Shown one piece after another: positions 36,681 through 42,466 of a stretch of 42,466 nucleotides of DNA. How positions within the stretch are numbered: the stretch's first letter is position 1; each line of letters starts with the position of its first letter. A program made the position numbers and the translations under genes. This DNA is from Candidatus Zixiibacteriota bacterium (GTDB lineage: Bacteria > Zixibacteria > MSB-5A5 > GN15 > PGXB01), in contig JBFMEF010000199.1 of the NCBI GenBank assembly GCA_040753495.1, positions 1-42,466 of the forward strand. Reading direction: 5' to 3'. The notes below the pieces were generated by a model, which had not been told where the DNA came from, made no database searches, and was given only the letters and a program-made list of their open reading frames with translations.

Positions 36681-36709
36681 TTGACAAACTCTATCGGCTG
36701 TAATATTAT
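36681..36709 (+). promoter_or_regulatory. Consensus promoter of the peptide/radical SAM cluster
   Basis: TTGACA at 36681-36686, 17 bases, TATTAT at 36704-36709. The predicted start near 36716 leaves an untranslated leader of about 185 bases before the first peptide gene. Confidence 0.7.
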
Positions 36710-36739
36710 AGGTTAGTTTCGCAGTATCTAAAGTGAAAT

Positions 36740-36769
36740 AAGAGCACTTTTGTCAGAATTCATGCTCTT
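36740..36769 (+). other. Leader hairpin
   Basis: AAGAGCA and TGCTCTT form a 7-bp stem with a 16-base loop, about 25 bases into the predicted leader. No T-tract follows. It may be a transcript-stabilising or regulatory element. Confidence 0.4.
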
Positions 36770-36900
36770 CGTTTATTTGTCAGGCTCATTAAACAGATGT
36801 TTTATTCGCAGCCGCGATATGGATTCAGTATCACGTTATGACAACACCCGCTAACCCTAAACCTTTAACCTCTAACCTTTGACATGAGGAGGTCTGGCCC

Positions 36901-37014
36901 ATGATTTATCTCATTGACCCGGCTGAAACGATCAAAGGGGCGTGCCCCAAGAAGTGCGCGACTCTCTGCGGCATTCTCTGCGCAGTGAAGCCGCTTTATG
37001 GCGTTCCCATTTGA
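36901..37014 (+). CDS. RiPP-like precursor peptide 1
   Basis: A 37-residue peptide missed by length filters. GAGGAGG stands before the ATG. It begins MIYLIDP and carries Cys15, Cys19, Cys23 and Cys27 in a strict C-x3-C-x3-C-x3-C series, and ends KPLYGVPI. First of four tandem paralogues that precede radical SAM genes, so it is probably a substrate modified at the Cys-rich core. Unlike the next two it has LYG rather than CYG near the end and an extra short insert with Cys27. No double-glycine or signal sequence. No family recognised from memory. Confidence 0.8.
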   Translation: MIYLIDPAETIKGACPKKCATLCGILCAVKPLYGVPI

Positions 37015-37059
37015 CGTCACTCTCTCGTTTTTCGCAACCTTTTCTGAGGAGGAGAAGAA

Positions 37060-37173
37060 ATGATTTATCTTGTTGACCCGTCGGTATCCAGAGATGCCTG
37101 CACTCTCAAATGCTCGACTTACTGCGGCATTAAACCTTGCTACGGCGTTCCCCCGGGACCGATTGAACTGTAA
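37060..37173 (+). CDS. RiPP-like precursor peptide 2
   Basis: A 37-residue peptide with a strong Shine-Dalgarno (GAGGAGGAG) before ATG 37060, 45 bases after peptide 1. It begins MIYLVDP, has Cys14, Cys18, Cys22 and Cys27 (spacing 3, 3, 4) in CTLKCSTYCGIKPCYGVPP, and ends GPIEL. The start of the gene is nearly identical in DNA to peptides 1 and 3, showing recent tandem duplication. A presumed substrate of the downstream radical SAM enzymes. Confidence 0.82.
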   Translation: MIYLVDPSVSRDACTLKCSTYCGIKPCYGVPPGPIEL

Positions 37174-37241
37174 TAGTTTCTGTCAACCTGAATTCATCCT
37201 TGTTTGACCAGTTTAGTGTGGAAGGTTGTGAGTTTGTGTAA

Positions 37242-37280
37242 GGCGGCGTCATAACTGACTTTTTCCAATGTGGCGCCGCC
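37242..37280 (+). terminator. Stem-loop between peptides 2 and 3
   Basis: GGCGGCG and CGCCGCC form a perfect 7-bp GC stem around a 25-base loop, followed by TGTTTATT. It lies in the 149-base gap between peptide 2 and peptide 3 and may attenuate or process the transcript, making the first two peptides more abundant than the enzymes. Confidence 0.45.
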
Positions 37281-37322
37281 TGTTTATTAATAACTAACTT
37301 CAGTTTTTAAGGAGGTGAAGGA

Positions 37323-37433
37323 ATGATTTATCTCATCGACCCCACTGCCGCGTCAAAGGACGTCTGCCTTAGACTGTGCGGTACCTATTGTGGGATTAAG
37401 CCGTGCTACGGCGTCCCGCCGGAGGAAATCTAA
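37323..37433 (+). CDS. RiPP-like precursor peptide 3
   Basis: A 36-residue peptide with AAGGAGGTGA before its ATG, the best ribosome binding site of the group. It begins MIYLIDP, has Cys15, Cys19, Cys23 and Cys28 (spacing 3, 3, 4) and shares TYCGIKPCYGVPP exactly with peptide 2, ending EEI. The identity of the core with peptide 2 and the divergence of residues 8-14 point to selection on both the N-terminal heptad and the Cys core. Confidence 0.82.
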   Translation: MIYLIDPTAASKDVCLRLCGTYCGIKPCYGVPPEEI

Positions 37434-37456
37434 CTTCAAATGCGGAGGAGATGAGA

Positions 37457-37561
37457 ATGGTTTATCTCATTGATCCAAATGCGGCGGTAAAGTCAGTTTG
37501 CACTTTTCTCTGCAAACTTTACAGACCGCCCACACCGTTATACGGCTTACCGCCGGATTGA
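37457..37561 (+). CDS. RiPP-like precursor peptide 4 (reduced Cys core)
   Basis: A 34-residue peptide with GCGGAGGAG before ATG 37457, 23 bases after peptide 3. It begins MVYLIDP and keeps Cys15 and Cys19, but the other two cysteines are replaced (LYRPPTPLYGLPPD). The YG(V/L)PP ending is retained. It is either a diverged substrate giving a different product or a decaying copy. The first radical SAM gene starts 32 bases later. Confidence 0.78.
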   Translation: MVYLIDPNAAVKSVCTFLCKLYRPPTPLYGLPPD

Positions 37562-37593
37562 TGTGTAAGGCGTTATTGCCAAACGGAGTTTGA

Positions 37594-38991
37594 ATGATTT
37601 CATCGATGGAGAGGGGCGACTCTCTCCATCAAGAAATGAAAAGACCGACCATTATGCACAAACTGTCACAATACAACCAGTTTCAGCCCTGGTTTGACGG
37701 CTATTACATAGCCTATAATGCCCGTTCCGGCGCCGTGGCATTGATGACCGCTGACAATTACTCTCTCTTTACCGATATCGCCCGCAAACTCCAGAGCGGC
37801 GATGCCAACTTCGACACCGAAGAGCAGAAACTTTTGACACAACTCAAATATGGCTCCTTTGTGGTCGATGACGATTTTGATGAATTCGAAACTCTCAAAT
37901 TCACTCATCAACTGGGTCGTTTCGATTCCACTTCTCTGGGGCTTACTATTGCCCCCACGATGGCGTGCAACATGGCTTGCCATTATTGCTTCGAGGAAAA
38001 CAAGAAGGGCAAGATGTCCTCAGCGGTAATTGAAGCCATCATTTCTTTCATCGAAAAACAGGCGCGCCAGCTCAAGAAACTTGAAATTGGCTGGTACGGC
38101 GGAGAACCGCTTCTCGCCATGGATGTCATCGAAGACCTCATGCTCTCCGTTAACGACCTCGCCGCGGAATATAAACTGGAGTGCGGCTCTTCTATAATCA
38201 CCAATGGGTATCTTCTCCATCGGGAAAATGTCGAGCGGCTGAGTCAGCTCAAAGTTTCGAGCGCTCAGGTCACTCTTGATGGCCCCGCTCGGCTTCATGA
38301 CCAGAAACGTCCCTTGAAAAACGGCAAGGGAAGTTTTGAGACCATCCTCGAAAATCTAAAATATGCTTCAACCCGAATCGGCATCGGCGTCCGGGTCAAT
38401 GTCGACAAGTCATTCACCAAAGAGACTATTCAGGAGCTTCTGGGAGAGCTCGCTGATGCTGGTCTGCGTGAACGGGTCGGCGTTTATTTCGGACAACTGG
38501 AGCCGGCGACCACCGCCTGCGCCAATATCTCCGAAAGCTGCTATGATACCGCCGGATTCTCCCAGATTGAAATCGAATATTACCGCCTTCTTCTGGAGAA
38601 CGGCTTTAGAATAGATAAGCTTCCCGCGCCGGCAGTTACTTTCTGCATGGCGCAAAATATTAACGCCTTTCTTGTCGACCCCGATGGCGAGCTGTACCGC
38701 TGCTTCAATTACGCCGGCGACAAGAAAATGTCGATGGGCAATATCCGCAACGAAATTAACTATCAGCATAAGAACTTTCTGCATCTCTTTCGCTACGACC
38801 CGTATGCTGATGGCGCATGTCGGGAATGCAATCTTCTCCCCGTTTGTGTCGGGGGATGTCCCTCCCGGCGCGCCGACCGCGACATTCCCCGGGAATTGCT
38901 CTGCGACAATTGGAAACATAATCTGGCGCCGATGCTTGAAATAATCGCCCTTTCACGGCAACAAGCGGCCGCTGCCGCCAAAAAGGAGTAA
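37594..38991 (+). CDS. Radical SAM/SPASM peptide maturase 1
   Basis: A 465-residue radical SAM enzyme. Residues ~20-105 form an N-terminal domain (YYIAYNARSGAVALM) of the kind that often precedes peptide-modifying radical SAM cores and may bind a leader. The SAM cluster is C125-x3-C129-x2-C132 (CNMACHYC), with GWYGGEPLL in the core. A full SPASM set for auxiliary clusters follows: C351, C370, C409, C412, C418, C422, C437. ATG 37594 has ACGGAG 5 bases upstream; Met codons at 37636 and 37654 are alternatives. Probably forms thioether or C-C crosslinks in the four upstream peptides. Confidence 0.88.
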   Translation: MISSMERGDSLHQEMKRPTIMHKLSQYNQFQPWFDGYYIAYNARSGAVALMTADNYSLFTDIARKLQSGDANFDTEEQKLLTQLKYGSFVVDDDFDEFETLKFTHQLGRFDSTSLGLTIAPTMACNMACHYCFEENKKGKMSSAVIEAIISFIEKQARQLKKLEIGWYGGEPLLAMDVIEDLMLSVNDLAAEYKLECGSSIITNGYLLHRENVERLSQLKVSSAQVTLDGPARLHDQKRPLKNGKGSFETILENLKYASTRIGIGVRVNVDKSFTKETIQELLGELADAGLRERVGVYFGQLEPATTACANISESCYDTAGFSQIEIEYYRLLLENGFRIDKLPAPAVTFCMAQNINAFLVDPDGELYRCFNYAGDKKMSMGNIRNEINYQHKNFLHLFRYDPYADGACRECNLLPVCVGGCPSRRADRDIPRELLCDNWKHNLAPMLEIIALSRQQAAAAAKKE

Positions 38992-38993
38992 CT

Positions 38994-40112
38994 ATGCTCG
39001 AATATAACGGCTTCAAAATTTTTCCCCAGTCTGTTATCTGGGAAATCACCTTTGCTTGCAATATGCGCTGCCTCCACTGCGGCACCTCGGCGGGGAAGAA
39101 ACGTCCCGATGAACTGACCACTGATGAAGCGCTGAAACTGATCGATGAACTCGCCGCCAATGGCGCCGAAGGTATTACTCTTTCCGGCGGTGAACCGCTC
39201 ATGCGCGAAGACTGGCGACTCCTTGCCAGGCGAATCAAGGAAAACGGCGTTCAGGCATATCTCATCACCAACGGCCTGGCCGTCACCCCTCAAATAATTG
39301 ACGACTTCGAAAGCCTCAATTTTGGCGACATCGGGGTCAGTTTTGACGGCACCGAGAAGACTCATAATTACATCCGCCAGCGCGACGACAGCTGGAGCAC
39401 CGCCTACGGCGCCCTGCAGATGATGGCAAAGAAGGGAACTTTCAAGTTCTGCGCCGTGACCCAGGTCTCCAACATGAATCTCGGCGAACTCCGTCAGATT
39501 AAACAGCTCCTGGTCGATGCCGGCTGCAGGCTCTGGCGTATCCAGATGACCACCTCCACCGGAAGAATGAAAAGTCTTAAAGACCTGATTCTCGGCATCG
39601 AGAACTACCCCAGGATGGTCGACCTGATTCTGGAGTTCCAGAAGGAAGGCGATATCAATATTGATGTCGGCGAGAATATCGGCTATTTCGGATGCAAAGG
39701 AAGTGAACTGCTTCAGGGAATGCCTTATTTCGGCTGCTATGCCGGCACCCGCGTTGTCGGTATCGAGTCCAATGGCAATATTAAAGGCTGCCTTTCCATG
39801 CCGGAAGAATTTGTTGAAGGGAATATCCGCGACTCCTCTTTCACCGAGCTCTGGCATCGTCCCGGCGCTTTCGCTTATAACCGCCAATTTACCCGGGAGA
39901 CCGCCAGCGGTGAATGCCGCGAGTGCCGTTATCTCCCGCTCTGTCGGGGAGGATGTACCACCACTTCCGTTTCCGCAACCGGGCAGCGCGCCGACAATCC
40001 TTATTGCATGTATCGCATCGAGAAAAAACAGGGGATTGTCTGCAAGGACAATGAAATCATAACCAATCTGTTGGACCAGATTAACGCCGGCGCAGAGAGC
40101 AAGACCACTTAA
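38994..40112 (+). CDS. Radical SAM/SPASM peptide maturase 2
   Basis: A 372-residue radical SAM protein starting 2 bases after the first. The SAM cluster motif C22-x3-C26-x2-C29 (CNMRCLHC) is close to the N-terminus, so no leader-binding domain is present; ITLSGGEPLMR follows. SPASM cysteines are C248, C266, C308, C311, C317, C321 and C338. It resembles PqqE and related RiPP maturases. Its presence beside maturase 1 implies a second modification or a complex. Its stop overlaps the next start by one base. Confidence 0.9.
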   Translation: MLEYNGFKIFPQSVIWEITFACNMRCLHCGTSAGKKRPDELTTDEALKLIDELAANGAEGITLSGGEPLMREDWRLLARRIKENGVQAYLITNGLAVTPQIIDDFESLNFGDIGVSFDGTEKTHNYIRQRDDSWSTAYGALQMMAKKGTFKFCAVTQVSNMNLGELRQIKQLLVDAGCRLWRIQMTTSTGRMKSLKDLILGIENYPRMVDLILEFQKEGDINIDVGENIGYFGCKGSELLQGMPYFGCYAGTRVVGIESNGNIKGCLSMPEEFVEGNIRDSSFTELWHRPGAFAYNRQFTRETASGECRECRYLPLCRGGCTTTSVSATGQRADNPYCMYRIEKKQGIVCKDNEIITNLLDQINAGAESKTT

Positions 40113-41542
40113 TGGAGTCTAAAGCTCCATCTATATATCTCGTTTACCCGTCCTGCTTCTACTATCCGGACTGGATGGAGAAGGTGGAGATGAAAACATC
40201 TCAACTTCTCCTGGCTTCATTCCTCTCCCGGTATTACCCGGTGGAATACGCCGATTTTGAATATGCCATTGGCCGTCCCAATAGCGTCGTCCAGATTAAA
40301 CGCTTCGAACGGAAAGTCCGCGACCTGTTCGAAAACTGCCGTCACAATATCCTGGCGATTTCCTGCTGGACCAGCCTCTCCTACCAGGCTACCCTGACTA
40401 TCTCCCGCATCTGGCGCGAATTGTACCCGGATAGATTAATCATCGTTGGCGGCTACCACGCCTCTGCCCGCCCTGACGAATTTCTCACCGCAAATAATCT
40501 CATCGATTATGTCATTTGCGGCGAAGGGGAACTGGCCCTCAAAGAAATCGCCGACGCCTTTGTCGCAGCCGGTCGGCCGCCTGCCACAACCGTTATCAAA
40601 GCGCCCTCTGTCCGTGAGGATAATTTTGTCGGTTACAACTGGGATATTGTGGACCGCTTTATGAGCGAGTACTTTCCCAATGGACCCGGTAATATCTATC
40701 TCTATCTTTCCCGCGGCTGCCCTTTCGGTTGTTCTTTCTGCATGGAGCCGCTCAAAGACCGGAAATGGCGCGCCTACACCCCCGAATCTGCCTTTAAGGA
40801 GCTGGAGACAGCCATCGCTCGCTTCAAGCCCTACGGTGTCGCTTTTGCCGATGCCTGCTTCGGGATGAGACCGGGCTGGCGCAAGGAATTCCTCCGCCTG
40901 CTTGCTGACTCCAAACCCCGCGCCTGGATTGTCATTGAGACTCGCCCCGAATATATTGATGACGAAGATATCGAGCTGTTCGCGCAGTTCAAGACCGAGA
41001 TACAATTCGGCGTCGAAAGCTGCTCGCCCGAAATGCTGCTTCTAATGAAAAAGACCCGACAGCCCGATAAATTTCTGGAGCGTTTCCGCGAAGTCAGTCA
41101 TAAGTTATCGGCCCGCGGCGTTCTCCACCGGGCAAATCTTATCTTTAATCATCCCGGCGAAACCCGGAAAACTCTTGAAGAAACCTATGGTTTCATCGAC
41201 CGTGAACTGGAGAATCGGAATTCTTACCTTATGTGGGCCGCCCACGGCTATATGCATTTTCCCGGTTGTGAACTCGATTCCAATAAAGCATATTATGAGA
41301 AGAATTTCGGAAGCCGCTTCCTTCGGCCCGAATGGTGGAAGGAGAATGACGACCAGTACTATGCCAGCATGCAGTTTATTCCTTCATCTGACCTGGGGGA
41401 AGAGAATCGCGGTCTCTGGGAGAAGATGATGGCGGATAGAAGAGAGAAACTGAAATCAGCCCTTGCCCCGCGAGCCTTCCGCTTTGCCGCCAACAAGTAT
41501 TTCCTCGACTGGAAAGTCGACCCCCGCTATGAAGAAGTTTAG
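40112..41542 (+). CDS. B12-binding-domain radical SAM protein
   Basis: A 476-residue radical SAM enzyme with an N-terminal cobalamin-binding-like domain (about 1-160; IIVGGYHASARPDEF and VICGEGELALKEI are typical) but no DxHxxG motif. The SAM cluster is C203-x3-C207-x2-C210 (CPFGCSFC). Such proteins often methylate unactivated carbons, including in peptides, so this gene could methylate the products. It may instead be a ring or lipid-modifying enzyme, but the one-base overlap with maturase 2 ties it to the cluster. Confidence 0.88.
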   Translation: MESKAPSIYLVYPSCFYYPDWMEKVEMKTSQLLLASFLSRYYPVEYADFEYAIGRPNSVVQIKRFERKVRDLFENCRHNILAISCWTSLSYQATLTISRIWRELYPDRLIIVGGYHASARPDEFLTANNLIDYVICGEGELALKEIADAFVAAGRPPATTVIKAPSVREDNFVGYNWDIVDRFMSEYFPNGPGNIYLYLSRGCPFGCSFCMEPLKDRKWRAYTPESAFKELETAIARFKPYGVAFADACFGMRPGWRKEFLRLLADSKPRAWIVIETRPEYIDDEDIELFAQFKTEIQFGVESCSPEMLLLMKKTRQPDKFLERFREVSHKLSARGVLHRANLIFNHPGETRKTLEETYGFIDRELENRNSYLMWAAHGYMHFPGCELDSNKAYYEKNFGSRFLRPEWWKENDDQYYASMQFIPSSDLGEENRGLWEKMMADRREKLKSALAPRAFRFAANKYFLDWKVDPRYEEV

Positions 41543-42466
41543 CCGGCTTTGGGGATATCTCAAACCTTACTGGCATCTGGAGCTGCTCGCCTTTCTGGTG
41601 ATGGCTCTCCTGGCCGGATTGGCTCTGGTTCTCCCCGGCTCTGTTCAGTATTTGATTGATGACCTCATTCCTTCGTTGACCGAACAGCCCAATGCCTCCG
41701 ACAATTTTCGCAAAGTCATCTACTTCGGCCTCTTTCTGGTCGGTATCTATCTGGCTAATGTCCTGTTCTCCTGGCTCCGTGACTATCTCGCCGCCTATAT
41801 CGGCGCCAATATCATCGCCGACATGCGCTCCCAGCTCTTTCGCCATCTGGAAAATCTCTCCTTGCGATTCTTCCAGACCCACCAGGTGGGCGAAATCATG
41901 TCCCGCTGCCTGTCCGATATAAACCAGATTCAGGGATTATTGACCTCAACTCTGCTTGTCTTTCTGACTAACATCCTGATGCTTGTTGCCATTGTCATTT
42001 ATCTGCTTACCATAAATCCCCTCCTGACTCTTATCGCCATTGTGCCGGTTCCTCTGACCATACTCTTTTCCCATATTTTTGGCAAGAAGCTGCATTTAAT
42101 CGTTAAAACTCTTCAGGAGACGGTCGCCCGACTGTCGGCGCGATTGCAGGAATCATTTCTCTCCGTAAAGACAATTAAGGCGTTTGGCCAGGAAGAATCA
42201 GAAAAAAAGAAAGTCGATGCAATCCTGAAGAAACTGACCGGCTTGTATGTCCGAACCAGCACCACATCTTCCCTGTCGGTTAATCTGGTGCACTTTATCA
42301 ATATGCTGGGTCCGATCGTCGTCCTCTCCTGGGGTACGTACCTGATTGCCGGCGGCTCCATGAGACTCGGTGCCCTGATGGCTTTCTACATGCTTTTGAC
42401 TTACTTCTATTCCCCCATCCAGGATTTGGCGTCGGTCAATATTCAGGTGCAAACGGCGATGGCGTC
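41529..42466 (+). CDS. ABC exporter, permease-ATPase type (partial, runs off window)
   Basis: The first 312 codons of an ABC transporter of the fused type I exporter family; the ATP-binding half lies beyond the window. The visible transmembrane part begins MKKFSRLWGYLKPYW, has helices near residues 15-37, 58-78 and 130-165, and the family-like stretch LRFFQTHQVGEIMSRCLSDI and ETVARLSARLQESFLSVKTIKAFG. No C39 peptidase domain precedes it, so leader removal, if any, needs another protease. It overlaps the preceding gene by 14 bases and probably exports the modified peptides. Confidence 0.88.
   Translation, partial: MKKFSRLWGYLKPYWHLELLAFLVMALLAGLALVLPGSVQYLIDDLIPSLTEQPNASDNFRKVIYFGLFLVGIYLANVLFSWLRDYLAAYIGANIIADMRSQLFRHLENLSLRFFQTHQVGEIMSRCLSDINQIQGLLTSTLLVFLTNILMLVAIVIYLLTINPLLTLIAIVPVPLTILFSHIFGKKLHLIVKTLQETVARLSARLQESFLSVKTIKAFGQEESEKKKVDAILKKLTGLYVRTSTTSSLSVNLVHFINMLGPIVVLSWGTYLIAGGSMRLGALMAFYMLLTYFYSPIQDLASVNIQVQTAMA

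Follow-up and report, generated by a model that had tools for sequence, protein, structure and literature searches.

A spliceotide-type peptide locus with a Clo7bot-like leader and maturase, predicted in the phylum Zixibacteria

Introduction

In the spliceotide systems of Pleurocapsa PCC 7319, PlpXY cuts the equivalent of tyramine out of an Xaa-Tyr-Gly site and rejoins the backbone, the natural sites being MYG and LYG (PMC10533398). A splice tag taken from the 10-residue minimal core of PlpA2 is given, with LYG, as GPIRPLYGLPI (PMC10533398), and PlpX is a SPASM enzyme of IPR026482 (PMC11002830). Here we describe a locus of the ribosomally synthesized and post-translationally modified peptide (RiPP) type at the end of a 42,466-nucleotide stretch of DNA (the window), one contig of a 3.1 Mb metagenome-assembled genome of Candidatus Zixiibacteriota. 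Genes for four small Cys-containing peptides are followed there by genes for two radical S-adenosylmethionine (SAM) enzymes of the SPASM type (SPASM1 and SPASM2), a B12-binding radical SAM protein and an ATP-binding cassette (ABC) exporter. These sequences are best read as a composite RiPP of the spliceotide type that would combine a leader and maturase resembling those of Clo7bot with a splicease and its tag at the C-terminus.

The locus shares with the spliceotides (PlpA2/PlpA3 with PlpXY) an Xaa-Tyr-Gly motif where Xaa is Leu or Met, preceded by Pro, and where another Pro usually follows, and an adjoining SPASM enzyme, here with TIGR04103 as its second-best NCBIfam match. It differs in having a leader of 7 residues, where theirs is a Nif11 or nitrile-hydratase domain, a Cys-rich core, no separate PlpY, and a second SPASM enzyme that bears a domain like a RiPP recognition element (RRE), often together with a B12 radical SAM enzyme, where the spliceotides have an epimerase. 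Clo7bot systems (TIGR04334) resemble it in having tandem peptides upstream of genes for the maturase and an ABC protein, in an M-x-[FY]-[IL]-x-x-P start followed by a Cys core, and in a maturase to which SPASM1 aligns over its whole length; unlike it, their clusters have a single SPASM enzyme and no Y-G tag. In the GDL-motif (DUF1843) systems (TIGR03913), tandem precursors have Pro, Leu or Met followed by Tyr-Gly or Tyr-Ala, but the DUF1843 proteins are helical-looking, have 56–64 residues with the motif near the N-terminus, lack a Cys core and are served by one enzyme. The match of SPASM1 to CteB, the enzyme of the SCIFF ranthipeptides, includes the N-terminal domain, whereas identity is about 20% and SCIFF precursors lack both this leader and the Y-G tag. 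The predicted working of the locus is that of a spliceotide, and its leader and first enzyme are Clo7bot-like. Because its enzymes score below the curated thresholds for TIGR04103, TIGR03913 and TIGR04334, and a separate PlpY is lacking, we treat it as a variant of these known systems.

Results

The precursor genes lie in tandem on the forward strand: peptide 1 (37 residues, MIYLIDPAETIKGACPKKCATLCGILCAVKPLYGVPI) at 36901..37014, peptide 2 (37 residues, MIYLVDPSVSRDACTLKCSTYCGIKPCYGVPPGPIEL) at 37060..37173, peptide 3 (36 residues, MIYLIDPTAASKDVCLRLCGTYCGIKPCYGVPPEEI) at 37323..37433 and peptide 4 (34 residues, MVYLIDPNAAVKSVCTFLCKLYRPPTPLYGLPPD) at 37457..37561. Each open reading frame (ORF) has a strong Shine-Dalgarno sequence at the correct distance (GAGGAGG before peptide 1) and an orthologue in L051, a locus of the same genus. 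A comparison of the two loci shows 30 synonymous changes in the four peptides and 2 non-synonymous ones (pS 0.29, pN 0.006). Peptides 1 and 2 each have 7 synonymous changes and 1 non-synonymous change, and peptides 3 and 4 are identical as proteins, with 8 synonymous changes each. DNA identity is 93% in the peptide genes and 84% between genes, where all the gaps fall. We conclude that the peptides are real genes under strong purifying selection. An earlier note, made from the letters of the window, had described them as four tandem genes of 34–37 codons with strong ribosome sites and common motifs, and both this description and its view of them as real genes are borne out.

The four peptides have in common M[IV]YL[IV]DP, C-x3-C (CPKKC, CTLKC, CLRLC, CTFLC) and YG[VL]P, and all four carry the Xaa-Tyr-Gly spliceotide motif. 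Against the PIRPLYGLPI core, peptide 4 (PPTPLYGLPP) agrees at 7 of 10 positions and peptide 1 (AVKPLYGVPI) at 6 of 10, with mostly conservative differences at the others. We then gathered family members by their leader only (M-x-[YF]-[LI]-[IVL]-[DENQ]-P), with no Cys or Y-G criterion, which yielded 69 peptide genes encoding 67 unique peptides of 31–48 residues in the cluster neighbourhoods read; one Zixibacteria peptide starts MKFLIDP. Tyr-Gly occurs in 61 of the 67, always in the context P-[LCM]-Y-G-[VIL] and always with Pro at position −2 (61/61 for both), and Pro (38) and Asp (12) make up most of the residues that follow. The leader and the tag are thus the constant parts; the middle is variable and holds one to seven Cys, so that the Cys-x3-Cys core proposed in the earlier note, present in the window's peptides and common in the family, is not universal. 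That note had also taken YG(V/L)P as a mere ending and recognised no named RiPP family with this motif. The ending is real, but it matches the spliceotide tag, and given also the TIGR04103 match of SPASM2 the second claim fails; tyramine excision had been overlooked.

SPASM2 (38994..40112, forward strand) is the predicted splicease. Its SPASM domain scores 36 bits in Pfam, and its best NCBIfam matches are TIGR03913, the GDL maturase model (231 bits, below the 592 cut-off), and TIGR04103, the nif11-class maturase model (225 bits), which we take to be equivalent to IPR026482. In a tree, SPASM2 clusters with nif11-type and GDL maturases, apart from MftC and TIGR04053 (86/82 support), and W74, Q184, G256 and N335 are common to its group and missing in five outgroup proteins. 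Close relatives on annotated plasmids adjoin precursors with Y-G or Y-A motifs. The Nostoc relative, which passes TIGR04103 (853 bits), has a Nif11 precursor ending SIALYGLPPELF before it and a 71-residue protein after it; the Agathobacter relative is preceded by an unannotated peptide with PVMYGTG, and those of Azospirillum and Aureibacter by DUF1843 proteins with LYG, PYG, MYA or LYA. Taken together, these data make it likely that SPASM2 acts as a splicease on the Y-G tag.

Several points weigh against this assignment. The TIGR04103 score lies far under the cut-off of 725, the branch that joins SPASM2 to its group is moderately supported, and the group also takes in the long-branched TIGR04133, which we do not connect with splicing. 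Y-G is not strict among the relatives, one Azospirillum precursor having PMYM, and six of the 67 family peptides, all from clusters that include SPASM2, show YS or YA or lack the tag. Finally, the closely packed operon holds no separate PlpY-like gene.

Two sets of precursors beside relatives of SPASM2 deserve mention in their own right. At L147 4797, an unannotated Agathobacter rectalis peptide, MFNLEELSLEFVKISELKTSKNLFGPVMYGTGVRM, lies directly before a radical SAM gene and is a likely splicease substrate. At L146 4168-4881 and L148 4055-4755, DUF1843 (GDL-motif) proteins with Pro/Leu/Met-Tyr-Gly/Ala near the N-terminus stand beside TIGR03913-type enzymes, and the comparison suggests that the GDL-motif family is also spliced.

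SPASM1 (37594..38991, forward strand) is a radical SAM/SPASM maturase with an RRE-like N-terminus; its start may instead be 37654, where most homologues begin. In NCBIfam it matches the Clo7bot maturase TIGR04334 best (347 bits, below the 600 cut-off). The NCBIfam SPASM-domain model TIGR04085 gives 55 bits against a cut-off of 27, and the Pfam SPASM domain 18.4 bits, just under 21.5. CxxxCxxC (C125, C129, C132) and the SPASM cysteines are invariant across 18 homologues. By sequence and by fold, the best PDB match is the thioether enzyme CteB, and the modelled N-terminus has strands followed by helices, the order of an RRE. In a Paraclostridium Clo7bot cluster, tandem Cys peptides start MKFIKKP or MKYIVKP, starts that share the M-x-[YF]-[LI]-x-x-P form with MIYLIDP. 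Elsewhere in the phylum, distant SPASM1 paralogues at loci without SPASM2 proper adjoin Cys peptides (starting MNWLVKP or MKFIEKP) devoid of Tyr-Gly. Most simply, the tag would go with SPASM2 and the leader with SPASM1. From these resemblances, cysteine chemistry by SPASM1 (thioether or similar crosslinks) seems somewhat favoured.

A second RiPP-like locus with SPASM1 paralogues and another radical SAM gene occurs at L138 8596-11254, on another contig of the window's own genome, and at L144 6293-10187; its tiny ORFs have PCPCYKM in common (MRIIETARQAQSKPCPCYKMLFLILPPW; MKFIEKPQMKKTDRPCPCYKMFFPIICSAD). At L143 1541 and 1718, the Cys peptides MNWLVKPSDSRDICYKHC... and MNWIVSPRNSAIYDNGYC... lie behind a SPASM1 paralogue, with no splicease-like gene.

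The genome-wide scan used a Shine-Dalgarno sequence plus the leader as its pattern, to avoid selecting for Cys or Y-G. A DNA pattern for the leader had matches in 15 of 60 related genomes, and its reversed version had none, so the recurrence is not due to chance. Alignment of SPASM1 matched 38 of 132 genomes of the phylum at E<1e-100, and the matches fall clearly into two sets, with true relatives scoring more than about 530 bits and paralogues less than 390. In all, 37 clusters with peptides and both SPASM enzymes were found in the phylum Zixibacteria, in the order peptides, SPASM1, SPASM2, optional B12 enzyme and ABC exporter, with up to seven peptide genes in one cluster (L054). The earlier note had named homologous clusters without peptides as a test. 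Of four SPASM1 genes for which no peptide was found, those at L120 and L136 lie at contig ends and that at L131 lies behind a gap in the assembly; the one at L114 is a real exception, with no peptide in 6 kb upstream, though the same genome's second cluster has peptides. Nearly all public records with the same peptide leader are named Candidatus Zixiibacteriota or GN15.

Were SPASM1 and SPASM2 both to act on cysteines, in a thioether-only (ranthipeptide or sactipeptide) system, the Y-G tail would be a recognition element and not a reaction site. All but one of the 67 peptides do have at least two Cys, SPASM1 is nearest CteB, and the SPASM2 model, whose nearest fold is PqqE, also resembles SkfB. 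Yet Pro-x-Tyr-Gly is the most constant part of the peptides apart from the leader, and SPASM2 relatives adjoin Y-G precursors that have no Cys core (the Nostoc Nif11 and Azospirillum DUF1843 proteins), so that we consider such a system unlikely. Less probable still is a different change to the Tyr by SPASM2, either a mycofactocin-like decarboxylation or crosslinking or a crosslink like that of pyrroloquinoline quinone, with a cofactor instead of a bioactive peptide as product. SPASM2 matches the NCBIfam MftC model (153 bits), and its fold again points to PqqE; however, both TIGR04103 and TIGR03913 outscore MftC, the tree separates MftC, the precursors are several and variable per cluster, unlike those of a cofactor, and the closely packed genes include no separate MftB- or PqqD-like chaperone gene. 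That the small ORFs are not precursors and the radical SAM genes act on something else is very improbable: no NCBIfam or Pfam model matched the peptides and L114 has none, but codon-level purifying selection already contradicts this idea, the ribosome sites are strong, and peptides occur in 37 clusters, most exceptions falling at a contig end or a gap in the assembly. Splicing at the tag by SPASM2, beside cysteine chemistry by SPASM1, is the reading that we retain.

The B12-binding radical SAM protein (40112..41542, forward strand; Pfam B12-binding and Radical_SAM) is optional in the family, its gene being present in 18 clusters and absent in 14 whose exporter is visible. It scores 82 bits against TIGR04013 (cut-off 251) and 72 bits against the RiPP C-methyltransferase model TIGR03975 (cut-off 282), and the chance that it methylates the peptides appears about even. 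Cys-x3-Cys occurs in 33 of 35 peptides with the B12 gene and 18 of 34 without it, and Lys-Pro-x-Tyr-Gly in 21 of 35 and 5 of 34, respectively (p ~1e-4 for each); with related clusters and many features tried, both associations are leads only. The presence of the gene in some clusters and not in others offers a natural comparison for finding the enzyme's target.

The ABC exporter (41529..42466, forward strand; MsbA-like, Pfam ABC_membrane) ends at the contig end. It is complete in L051, where its gene is the last of the set and the full-length protein has membrane and ATPase domains only. Since complete relatives of the exporter lack a peptidase domain and the cluster gene set includes no protease gene, a leader peptidase, if any, is encoded elsewhere. 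The spacings between peptide 4, SPASM1, SPASM2, the B12 gene and the exporter are 32, 2, −1 and −14 bases, and a Pfam Radical_SAM domain is found in SPASM1, SPASM2 and the B12 protein. The earlier note had given exactly these genes and spacings, and conservation and gene order lend good support to its proposal of a ribosomally made, radically modified, exported peptide system.

Ahead of the peptide genes, a consensus scan found a promoter-like TTGACA-N17-TATTAT (36681..36709, forward strand; 11 of 12 positions), which is suggestive only, as such sites are no more numerous in that region than in shuffles. In the gap between peptides 2 and 3, RNA folding indicates a hairpin (37242..37280, forward strand; GGCGGCGTCAT ... 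CGCCGCC) with a z of −2.4 in the window and −2.7 in L051, the stem being conserved and the loop changed; it is a possible control element, perhaps setting the ratio of the peptides. An Rfam scan of the window gave no match, hence no cobalamin riboswitch.

Some of the loci recovered depart from the common pattern. At L118 9533-14158 there are two SPASM1 copies and one SPASM2, and the peptides have LYA, LYS or no tag, not LYG. In the distant group, L132 and L133 have an extra radical SAM-like gene between the peptides and SPASM1. Lone peptides with the same leader and tag occur elsewhere in the cluster-bearing genomes L043, L044, L045 and L047, and other lone peptides, at L048 9882 and L049 9467, have a MIYLIDP-type leader, another conserved core (LCGIDICRRLSIEPICPP) and no Tyr-Gly. 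One cluster is on a contig labelled Calditrichaeota (L057). The contig labelled Ignavibacterium sp. (L071) is a same-genus relative of this Zixibacteria genome, and the public label looks wrong. Scan matches L059 and L062 were dropped as longer, unrelated ORFs, and phylum matches G111, G114 and G115 as parts of large proteins.

Discussion

Across one phylum, clusters pair genes for two SPASM enzymes and an exporter with genes for short precursors, which are made up of a leader of 7 residues, a Cys core that varies and a tag at the C-terminus. We know of no cultured representative of the phylum Zixibacteria. The literature held nothing for the leader sequence or for RiPPs in Zixibacteria, in a search whose coverage left aside the main spliceotide papers, including the splicease survey, which may already list some of these clusters.

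In the mechanism that we propose, the RRE-like N-terminus of SPASM1 would bind the leader MIYLIDP as a beta strand, and SPASM1 would link Cys residues to neighbouring residues by thioether or similar bonds. SPASM2 would excise tyramine at the Y-G tag, a change that in spliceotides is a loss of 135.0757 Da. Where present, the B12 enzyme might methylate or otherwise change a core carbon, and the ABC protein would export the peptide, its leader removed or not by a protease encoded elsewhere. The gene set suggests that the exported peptides carry both a spliced backbone and further chemical modifications. That one small peptide receives all three radical SAM modifications, namely Cys crosslinks, tyramine splicing at Leu/Cys/Met-Tyr-Gly and a B12-dependent change that would be limited to about half of the clusters, is a tentative proposal whose chances we put slightly short of even. 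Where Cys precedes Tyr-Gly, splicing would yield a beta-cysteine-type alpha-ketoamide that could itself join crosslinks.

Spliceotide products have been reported as protease inhibitors (PMC11117315). By analogy, and because the product would contain a ketoamide, protease inhibition is its most likely activity. If the proposal is true, a splicease has been set in a different RiPP scaffold, in which the leader has only 7 residues, the core contains Cys and the partner enzyme brings along its own RRE. The peptides, at 31–48 residues, would then be a minimal substrate for a backbone-editing enzyme of use in protein labelling, with many natural variants and several per genome, and the products of these bacteria would be crosslinked alpha-ketoamides, a known protease-inhibitor chemistry.

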